A stretch of 64,000 nucleotides of DNA, from positions 1 to 64,000 of the forward strand of contig CAMAVE010000001.1 of NCBI GenBank assembly GCA_945861595.1, given 5' to 3'. Position 1 is the stretch's first letter. Each line of letters begins with the position of its first letter. The notes beneath the pieces were generated by a model. It did not search any database. It saw only the letters and a program-made list of their open reading frames with translations, and was not told the DNA's origin. This document shows positions 21,487 to 24,405 of this stretch, piece by piece. This DNA comes from Synechococcus sp. UW140 (GTDB lineage Bacteria; Cyanobacteriota; Cyanobacteriia; PCC-6307; Cyanobiaceae). Position numbers and translations under genes: made by a program.

Positions 21487-23712
21487 TCAGGGCAGGGCCA
21501 CCAGCCAACGGCCGCCGGCGGCCAGGGCAAGGGCCAGCAGGGAGGCCGCTGGTAGGGCGGAACTGCCGGCGCGCAGCATGCGGCGCAACAGCACCAGCGC
21601 CCCGGCGAGGCCCACCACCACTGCGACGCTCTGGCAGAAGCCGATCACGTGGCTATCGGCCTGCCAACTAGGCATTTGGGCGGCGAATGCGCCATTGAGC
21701 GGGGCGAAGGAGACCTGCAGCACCGTGCCGGCTTCGGCCATGCCCAGGGGTAAGTAGCGGGCCAGCAGCAGCCCCCAGAGCAGGGGGAGTAGAGCGTAGA
21801 GAATCCGGCGCAGGCGCTGGGGCGCGAACCAGGGCCGCATCAACAGGAAGACCAAGGACGGCAGGGCCAGTGCCAGGGCGCCGAAGGCCAGCCGCGGTAG
21901 CAACGGACCCTCGCTGAGGCTGGCCGGGGCCAGGGGCAGGGACCCCAGCAGCCGCTGCCAGTGGTGCAGGGTCAGGTCACCCGCCAACACGAGGAACAGG
22001 CCTGCTTCCGCAGCCGGCGCGTCCAGGTCCCGCTGCAGGTCGGCGGCGGGCGGACGCAGGCTCAGCTGCACCGAGCGGTGCGGACAGGCCTGGGCGCAAC
22101 TCATGCACAGGACGCAGTTGCGGTTGTTGCTCAGGTGGGCCGGGTGGGTGCCGAGCGGGCAGCCGGCCGTGGCCAGGCCTTCGCCGTGGGCGGGACCGCC
22201 TTTGAAACAGCCGTAGGTGCTGCAGCTGCCACTGCAGGTGCCCACCTGGGCGCGCAATTCCAGGATCGAGAGCTTGGCAAACAGGCCGTTCATACCGCCA
22301 ACCGGGCACAAATAGCGGCACCAAAAGCGCTTCTCAAAGCGCAACGAACCGATCACGGCCCCGGCGGTGATCAACAGCAGCAGGCAACTGCTCAGCCAGG
22401 CGGTGTTCTCCAGGTCCCAGACCGCTTCCCAGAGCAGGATTGCGGCAAAGCCGGAGGCCAGCAGGGGCGCAGCCCAGTCGTCACTGCATCCCCTTGGCCA
22501 TTCCGCCGGTGTCCAGCCCAGCAGCCGGGCCAGCCGTTGGCTGATCTCGCCCCACACCATGAAGGGGCAAACCGCGCACCAGAGCCGCCCCACCAGGGGG
22601 TAGCTCAGCAGGATCAGGGGCCACCACCAGGCCCAGAACAGGGTGAGGCCGCCGTTGTGGGCCCGGTCCTGGGGCCCCATCCACAACCAGAGGTTCACCA
22701 GCACAAACAGCCAGCTGACCAGGCCGAACAGCACCACCGTCCATACCCGGGGATTGCGCAGCCAGTCGCGCAGGCCTGGTTTCCAGCGCCAGAGGTCGAA
22801 ACGAAAGCGCTGTTGGCGCACCGGCGTCCAGAAGACCTCCTCCGGCAATGGGGCCAATTCCGCTCCCGTGGCCTTGCCGCTAGGGCTGGCGGTAGCAGGC
22901 CGGGCCTGCTGCAGGGCCCGGTTGAGCAGCTCTTCGAGTTCCTGCAGATTGCCGGGAAAGTCGTAGCTCTGGAGCCGCTTGATCACCGCCTCCGGCACCT
23001 GGGGGGGCTGGCGCCAACCGAGGGGGCGGCTGCGCATCCGCACGCTGTAGCGCACCCATTCGCCCAGGTCCTGGCGCCGCACCCGCAGGGGCGGCACCCG
23101 GATCGAGAGGCAGTGGCGATCCACTGCCGGCACGGCCACTTCCGAGGTGAAGTACACGCGGCCGGGGAACTGGTGCAAGCTGCCGCCCGGGCCACCGGCG
23201 CGCCATTGCCCCGTATCGGCGAGGGTCAGCAGGGCCTGCTGCAGGCGGGCGGGCACCTGGTCGATTTTGTTGATCAGCAGGGCGCCGCTGCCGAGGCTCT
23301 CGAGCAGGGACCCGGCCCCATCGCTGCTGGCGGAGCCGAACAGTTCGGCCCCATCCTCCCGCAGCAGGGCACCATCGAGCCGCACCATCAGCTGGCGGCG
23401 GGCAGGGGAGCCAAAATGGATCAGGGCCGCCAGGTTGTCCTTCTCCAGGCCGGGCTCGCCGCTGATCAGCACGGGCTGGGCCGCGCCATCTTCGGAGGCC
23501 TGGCGCACGGCCTCCCGCAGCCGGGTGGCGTAGCGGCTGCTGCCAACAATGCCGCGGCGGGCGCGCACCACCAGGTGGGGCGCCAAACGCTGGAACCTTT
23601 CGGCGCTGGGCATGGGGGCCTGGGCCATCGCCAGGGCGCGGCTGGCGGCTGGCTCCGCCCCCGGGCGATCAGAACAGGGGGACTCCGCTGCTGGACTGGG
23701 TTGGTCGACCAT
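21487..23712 (-). CDS. Degenerate sigma54-activator-like AAA+ domain fused to NapH/CcoG-like 4Fe-4S polyferredoxin membrane domain
   Basis: N-half: VLISGEPGLEKDNLAALIHFGS, ELFGSASSDGAGSLLESLGSGALLINKIDQVPARLQQALL, PGNLQELEELLNRAL. C-half: TM helices, LWCAVCPF, FWCRYLCPVGGMNGLF, NCVLCMSCAQACPHRSV. Confidence 0.85.
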   Translation of the reverse strand: MVDQPSPAAESPCSDRPGAEPAASRALAMAQAPMPSAERFQRLAPHLVVRARRGIVGSSRYATRLREAVRQASEDGAAQPVLISGEPGLEKDNLAALIHFGSPARRQLMVRLDGALLREDGAELFGSASSDGAGSLLESLGSGALLINKIDQVPARLQQALLTLADTGQWRAGGPGGSLHQFPGRVYFTSEVAVPAVDRHCLSIRVPPLRVRRQDLGEWVRYSVRMRSRPLGWRQPPQVPEAVIKRLQSYDFPGNLQELEELLNRALQQARPATASPSGKATGAELAPLPEEVFWTPVRQQRFRFDLWRWKPGLRDWLRNPRVWTVVLFGLVSWLFVLVNLWLWMGPQDRAHNGGLTLFWAWWWPLILLSYPLVGRLWCAVCPFMVWGEISQRLARLLGWTPAEWPRGCSDDWAAPLLASGFAAILLWEAVWDLENTAWLSSCLLLLITAGAVIGSLRFEKRFWCRYLCPVGGMNGLFAKLSILELRAQVGTCSGSCSTYGCFKGGPAHGEGLATAGCPLGTHPAHLSNNRNCVLCMSCAQACPHRSVQLSLRPPAADLQRDLDAPAAEAGLFLVLAGDLTLHHWQRLLGSLPLAPASLSEGPLLPRLAFGALALALPSLVFLLMRPWFAPQRLRRILYALLPLLWGLLLARYLPLGMAEAGTVLQVSFAPLNGAFAAQMPSWQADSHVIGFCQSVAVVVGLAGALVLLRRMLRAGSSALPAASLLALALAAGGRWLVALP

Positions 23713-23793: not shown

Positions 23794-24405
23794 ATGATGG
23801 GGAGCCCTGCACCCCCTATGGCCATGGGCCTCACCCTGTTTGGCGGCCTGCGCAGCCGCGCCTCGATGCCCCGCTGGTACATGGCCGAAAGGGGCATTGC
23901 CTATGACTGGACCCTGGTGGACATGGGCGCCAAGGAGCACCACCAGGCCCCCTTTTTGGCGATCAATCCCTTCGGCAAGGTGCCGGCCCTAATCGACACC
24001 GATCCGGCCCTGCCGGGGGGCGAACTGCGCCTGTTTGAAAGTGGCGCAATCCTGCTCTATCTGGCCGAGCGCCACGGCCAGGACTTCCGCAACGCCGCCG
24101 ACCGGGCCCTGGCCCAGCAATGGGTGCTGTTTGCCAATGCCTCCTTGGCCCCGGCCCTGTTCAACCCCGGCCAGCGGGAGACGGAATTTCCCCGCTTGCT
24201 GGGGGTGCTGAACGGGTTGTTGGTGCCGGGCGGATCAATCACTGGCGGCGAGTGGGGCGTAGCCGATTGCGCCATCAATGCCCACCTGGCCTACCTGCCG
24301 ATTTTCTTTCCCCAGATCGATCTCTCCCCTTGGCCGGCCGTGGAAGCCACGATCCGCCTCACCCAGGAACGCCCCGCCTACCAGCAAGCCATGGCCGTGA
24401 GTTAA
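23794..24405 (+). CDS. Glutathione S-transferase family protein
   Basis: LFGGLRSRASMPRWYMAERGIAYDWTLVDM...NPFGKVPALID...LFESGAILLYLAE. Confidence 0.9.
   Translation: MMGSPAPPMAMGLTLFGGLRSRASMPRWYMAERGIAYDWTLVDMGAKEHHQAPFLAINPFGKVPALIDTDPALPGGELRLFESGAILLYLAERHGQDFRNAADRALAQQWVLFANASLAPALFNPGQRETEFPRLLGVLNGLLVPGGSITGGEWGVADCAINAHLAYLPIFFPQIDLSPWPAVEATIRLTQERPAYQQAMAVS

Follow-up and report, generated by a model that had tools for sequence, protein, structure and literature searches.

An NtrC-type AAA+ domain without sigma54-contact motifs, fused to a polyferredoxin-like membrane module in Cyanobacteriia

The window analysed here is a stretch of 64,000 nucleotides from Synechococcus sp. UW140 (contig CAMAVE010000001.1, positions 1 to 64,000). 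On its minus strand, with the stop side at 21487, lies a frame that is open throughout; its product begins with an AAA+ domain of the EBP type, lid included, and continues into a membrane module rich in cysteine. Longer starts are open at ATG 23712 and GTG 23943, neither of which is conserved among relatives. Since the homology with relatives begins near 'FQRLAPHLV', ATG 23628 is the likeliest start, and it or 23613 is a likelier choice than ATG 23712. The features of the gene are the following:

21487..23628, minus strand: whole gene, 713 aa from ATG 23628 (open reading frame and homology)
22906..23565, minus strand: EBP-type AAA+ core and lid, PF00158, PF14532 and PF25601 (Pfam, models and fold match)
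23434..23460, minus strand: GEPGLEKDN, a variant Walker A at residues 57-65, with a lysine at position 63 throughout the family (census and alignment)
23305..23334, minus strand: L1/GAFTGA loop site, SASSDGAGSL, residues 99-108 (census and alignment)
23260..23280, minus strand: LLINKID at the Walker B position, residues 117-123, with NK in place of the acidic pair (census and alignment)
22339..22752, minus strand: four predicted transmembrane helices, residues 293-430 (model and alignment)
22567..22578, minus strand: CxxC pair C351 and C354, invariant (alignment)
22306..22320, minus strand: CxxxCP pair C437 and C441, invariant (alignment)
22084..22236, minus strand: cytoplasmic ferredoxin-like segment with C465, C469, C474, C490, C505, C508, C511 and C515, all invariant (Pfam and alignment)
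21490..22014, minus strand: C-terminal membrane helices, residues 539-711 (model and alignment)

The fusion gene is single-copy in its own genome, and a dN/dS of about 0.3 against three relatives (0.232/0.678, 0.297/0.942 and 0.244/0.680) indicates purifying selection on a maintained gene. The original prediction, that one uninterrupted frame joins an NtrC-type AAA+ domain to a NapH-like membrane polyferredoxin, agrees with the open frame, the Pfam domains and the recurrence of the gene across the class. The two halves are not separate genes in all relatives; the fusion was found in 260 of 390 sampled Cyanobacteriia genomes, about two thirds (profile search, E<=1e-100), and an assembly artefact or chance fusion of two genes was ruled out by the identical fusion in so many genomes. 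In a search of 386 genomes of the phylum, full-length fusions were found only in Cyanobacteriia; matches in the sister classes covered one half each, either the membrane module or the AAA+ part. The best 80 matches of one genome scan were only cyanobacteria, with no fusion from elsewhere among them, and a plasmid search returned two full-length matches, both cyanobacterial. The fusion gene is missing from Prochlorococcus-sized genomes and several marine Synechococcus-type genomes. In some Cyanobiaceae (G372, G348, G201, G272, G342 and G257), Group I matches contain in-frame stops or are split in two, suggesting either ongoing loss or matches that overrun the true start.

Two clades are resolved by a tree of the membrane half, in which the long outgroup branches leave the root unsure: Group I, which includes the window protein (support 93/72), and Group II (100/99), with about 43 occurrences in the 390 genomes. 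The majority of relatives, at around 850 aa, carry an N-terminal Crp/Fnr-type cNMP-binding-like domain (PF00027) above its cut-off, as did 4 of 5 scanned relatives. The window protein and its family are without this domain, which makes the window protein a shortened version; in one marine genus the AAA+ part is shortened further and the protein is 658-668 aa. That the cNMP-like domain of the relatives senses cAMP is doubtful, as the usual cyclic-nucleotide ligand residues (Glu/Arg) were not seen by eye.

The AAA+ fold is of the NtrC (EBP) type, as had been predicted, and it matches NtrC1, FleQ, NifA and VpsR both by sequence and by structure. The window protein scores 34.5 bits with Sigma54_activat PF00158 (Pfam cut-off 20.2, E=2e-8) and 26.3 bits with AAA_lid_14, just below its own cut-off. 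In a Foldseek comparison of two AlphaFold models, all 50 matches listed per model were EBP AAA+ domains, with FleQ and VpsR, for both of which c-di-GMP-bound structures exist, among the matches listed. An arginine before the (I/V)G motif, conserved in 134 of 142 Group I members, made c-di-GMP binding as in FleQ and VpsR a candidate, but the other FleQ ligands do not seem to match.

Motifs were surveyed in a census of 185 proteins (P-loop segment present in 184, with a gap in one) and aligned with real activators, namely two NifA and one phenol-type EBP. The Walker A string GEPGLEKDN had been read correctly but was called degenerate, and this proved an overstatement: the P-loop lysine is kept in 184/184 proteins, the Group I motif GEPGL[E/G]KDN is nearly invariant, and the third Gly of the canonical GExGxGKE/T, which is Glu in the window protein, is present in 30/142 Group I members (28/123 plus 2/19), so that this Glu is one of two common Group I states. 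The motif is a variant rather than lost. LLINKIDQVP, on the other hand, was rightly taken for a broken Walker B. Its acidic pair is replaced, the Asp has become Asn in 121 of 123 Group I proteins outside Cyanobiaceae, and the catalytic Glu occurs in none of the 184 proteins, whichever the group. Judged from the census, Walker B is the damaged element, rather than Walker A. The sigma54-contact loop is indeed replaced by SASSDGAGSL, as claimed; canonical GAFTGA occurs in 0/185 proteins, and compared with real EBPs the loop of the family is short by 6-8 residues. The arginine finger motif (RxDLYxRL) is found in 0/185, and the segment of about 12 residues that holds the finger in real activators is deleted. 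The kept lysine beside the damaged Walker B suggests nucleotide binding, or a structural role, without efficient hydrolysis, and in Group I the Walker B is so altered that even Mg-ATP binding may be gone.

No HTH DNA-binding domain was detected in the window protein at E up to 1 or in the relatives scanned, and the C-terminus of the window protein consists of membrane helices in place of the HTH. A search for rpoN gave no PF04552 match in the own genome, which is 86% complete, and one convincing match in 386 genomes of the phylum. That sole match to the sigma54 DNA-binding domain is a short frame of 207 aa (G125:C1:411956-412339, minus strand). The near-absence agrees with the prediction that cyanobacteria generally lack sigma54 and with a report that sigma54 and its activators were absent from all 29 cyanobacteria sequenced at that time (PMC3162934). 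Without GAFTGA, the arginine finger and an HTH, and with no rpoN in the genome, the protein cannot act as a sigma54 activator, and this role was ruled out. Homology-based automatic annotation labels such proteins as regulators, and depositors' names for Group II members include 'nitrogen assimilation regulatory protein' and 'cyclic nucleotide-binding domain-containing protein', but an ordinary sigma54 activator, or two genes joined by an assembly artefact, is an exceedingly improbable reading given these losses and the class-wide fusion.

The membrane half is a multi-TM module with several Cys clusters, again as predicted. Fer4_5 PF12801 matches the window protein in two stretches (28.1 bits, cut-off 22), while the NapH family TIGR02163 scores 45.5 bits, far under its cut-off of 213. 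Twelve cysteines, in a CxxC, a CxxxCP, a Cx3Cx4C...C set and a CxxCxxCxxxCP, are invariant in 185/185 proteins. Conservation is highest in the ferredoxin segment, with 84-90% identity within groups compared with 59-65% for the AAA+ part. Two AlphaFold models (pLDDT 75.5 and 78.8) are confident for the AAA+ part and the helices and of low confidence for the ferredoxin loop, so that ligation of Fe-S clusters is proposed from the motifs. Given a cytoplasmic AAA+ part and the predicted helix count, all twelve cysteines would lie on the cytoplasmic side. This half also has stand-alone homologues, in Deinococcus and, at a greater distance, in haloarchaea and Sulfurovum. At one Sulfurovum locus (L155, 6028-11258), a distant stand-alone polyferredoxin adjoins a 2-hydroxyacyl-CoA dehydratase and the ATP-dependent activase of that enzyme, a hint that ATP-driven reductases may receive electrons from carriers of this sort.

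Group II is linked to cysK. Of 42 loci, a total in which one plasmid appears twice, 29 have this gene downstream in the same orientation, 18 of them with a spacing of -7 to +36 bp; any cysK is nearby in just 4/84 Group I loci. The linked gene product passes the NCBIfam cut-off for cysteine synthase A. Other recurring Group II neighbours are rhodanese, nitronate-monooxygenase-like, psbA, Rieske, DUF2892, DUF4079 and DsrE genes. The loci with cysK (L032, L033, L035, L036, L041, L152, L153 and L217-L245) are often part of islands that also contain rhodanese, psbA, Rieske and DUF2892 genes, and some are on plasmids. Sulfide-adapted cyanobacteria have been linked with special psbA copies near sqr (PMC5061849), a parallel to the psbA neighbours of Group II that is suggestive only. 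The adjacency of cysK points to a redox or sulfur job and not to gene regulation.

Among the Group I loci no neighbour is conserved across orders, which leaves the window's copy without a genomic clue to its partner. In one marine genus (L252, L253, L255 and L256), the Group I gene is followed immediately, in the same orientation, by a FUR-family gene. An ArsR/SmtB-like gene lies upstream on the opposite strand in L044, L151 and six more Group I loci, close by in L044 and L151. In the window, a glutathione S-transferase gene (23794-24405, plus strand) is divergent from the fusion gene, an arrangement shared by only a few close relatives. A functional link to the adjacent nadA, which encodes an Fe-S enzyme, was ruled out, as nadA is no neighbour in the relatives examined, with gst a neighbour in a few. 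A defence system was likewise rejected, since the PADLOC matches reflect only the EBP AAA+ part shared with RtcR-like models.

The most likely reading, with a probability of roughly 0.4, is that of a cytoplasm-facing membrane protein that transfers electrons through iron-sulfur clusters and is gated by an EBP scaffold able to bind nucleotide but impaired in hydrolysis; it ranks above an assembly factor, an inert scaffold and a transcription-signalling sensor. The original suggestion of a redox-coupled regulatory or assembly module stays a proposal. The architecture and its spread, the motif losses, the invariant lysine and cysteines and the cysK linkage of Group II are established here; for the clusters, the electron transfer with its partners and direction of flow, the nucleotide gating and the sulfur chemistry, we infer the following scheme. 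The cysteines would hold two ferredoxin-type [4Fe-4S] clusters plus one cluster at the membrane interface. The AAA+ part would bind nucleotide without efficient turnover and act as an oligomerising, nucleotide-sensing gate for electrons passing between a donor in the membrane, for example the quinone pool, and an acceptor in the cytoplasm. For Group II, the chemistry on the acceptor side would probably be that of sulfur, with sulfide or persulfide feeding cysteine synthase. The complete version of this model, in which an EBP-derived AAA+ ring that has lost transcription gates a membrane Fe-S wire by the nucleotide state of the cell and the Group II form supplies reduced sulfur to a dedicated cysteine synthase of the same operon, would make the fusion a distinct class of redox protein and is unlikely as a whole.

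Foremost among the alternatives, yet unlikely, is an assembly factor in which an active AAA+ machine and an electron donor mature a metalloenzyme, like MoxR/NorQ-type ATPases with a CcoG/NosR-like reductase. NosR and CcoG are NapH-like proteins connected with metalloenzyme function, and Group II retains a canonical GKT Walker A, with the Walker B Asp in 22/42 members. However, N, Q or H occupies the position of the catalytic Glu in 42/42 Group II proteins, which together with the deleted arginine finger makes strong ATP hydrolysis unlikely, and no client enzyme adjoins Group I. Next, and also rather improbable, the AAA+ part may be a relic or mere scaffold, with the polyferredoxin alone at work. 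Its weaker conservation, the loss of the cNMP-like domain in the window's family, the further cut in one marine genus and the stops in some Cyanobiaceae copies all fit such decay, but a relic would not retain the P-loop lysine, and the near-invariant Walker A and the retention of the fusion across the class also disfavour it.

More doubtful still is a redox sensor, in which the Fe-S module senses the redox state and the AAA+ part relays the signal to transcription without sigma54, like the sigma70-type TyrR, DhaR and HupR. Both sequence and fold place the AAA+ part near VpsR, FleQ and NtrX, most relatives carry a cNMP-like sensor domain, and a precedent exists in EBP homologues with a damaged GAFTGA that function with sigma70 (listed in PMC3162934). 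Against it, no scanned member has a DNA-binding domain, no conserved target gene adjoins Group I, and conservation is highest in the electron carrier rather than in the AAA+ domain.

The fusion protein differs from each of the closest known systems. With the sigma54 EBPs NifA, NtrC1, FleQ and PspF it shares the AAA+ core and lid fold, the Walker A position and the LFG and PPLRxR motifs; it differs in having no GAFTGA, Walker B DE, arginine finger or Fis-type HTH, in a genome without rpoN, and in the membrane protein fused to it. The sigma54-independent relatives TyrR, DhaR, VpsR and HupR likewise have an EBP-type AAA+ domain and a damaged GAFTGA, but they retain a DNA-binding domain and act on promoters, whereas the fusion has a membrane electron carrier instead. 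Polyferredoxins of the NapH/MauN, NosR and CcoG kinds resemble the membrane half in their Fer4_5 stretches, the CxxC and CxxxCP near membrane helices and the ferredoxin CxxCxxCxxxCP; beyond these, the fusion has a further set of cysteines, some five additional helices at the C-terminus and the N-terminal AAA+ part. A stand-alone polyferredoxin of Deinococcus ficus (WP_027463891.1), 28% identical to a Group II member along 422 residues of the latter, has most of the Cys motifs and the C-terminal membrane part and lacks any AAA+ or cNMP domain. NCBIfam holds no model for the fusion, and the literature searched gives no description of the architecture. The parts are all of known kinds, while their combination and the cysK-linked clade appear undescribed within what was searched.

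In conclusion, an activator AAA+ fold unfit for sigma54 work persists in about two thirds of a class from which, in 29 cyanobacteria, sigma54 and its activators were reported absent (PMC3162934). The pairing of Group II with cysK offers a tangible lead into sulfur metabolism that can be tested. Should the gating model hold, a transcription motor of the AAA+ type would have been converted to controlling electron transfer in the membrane, and such control is vital to cyanobacterial life.
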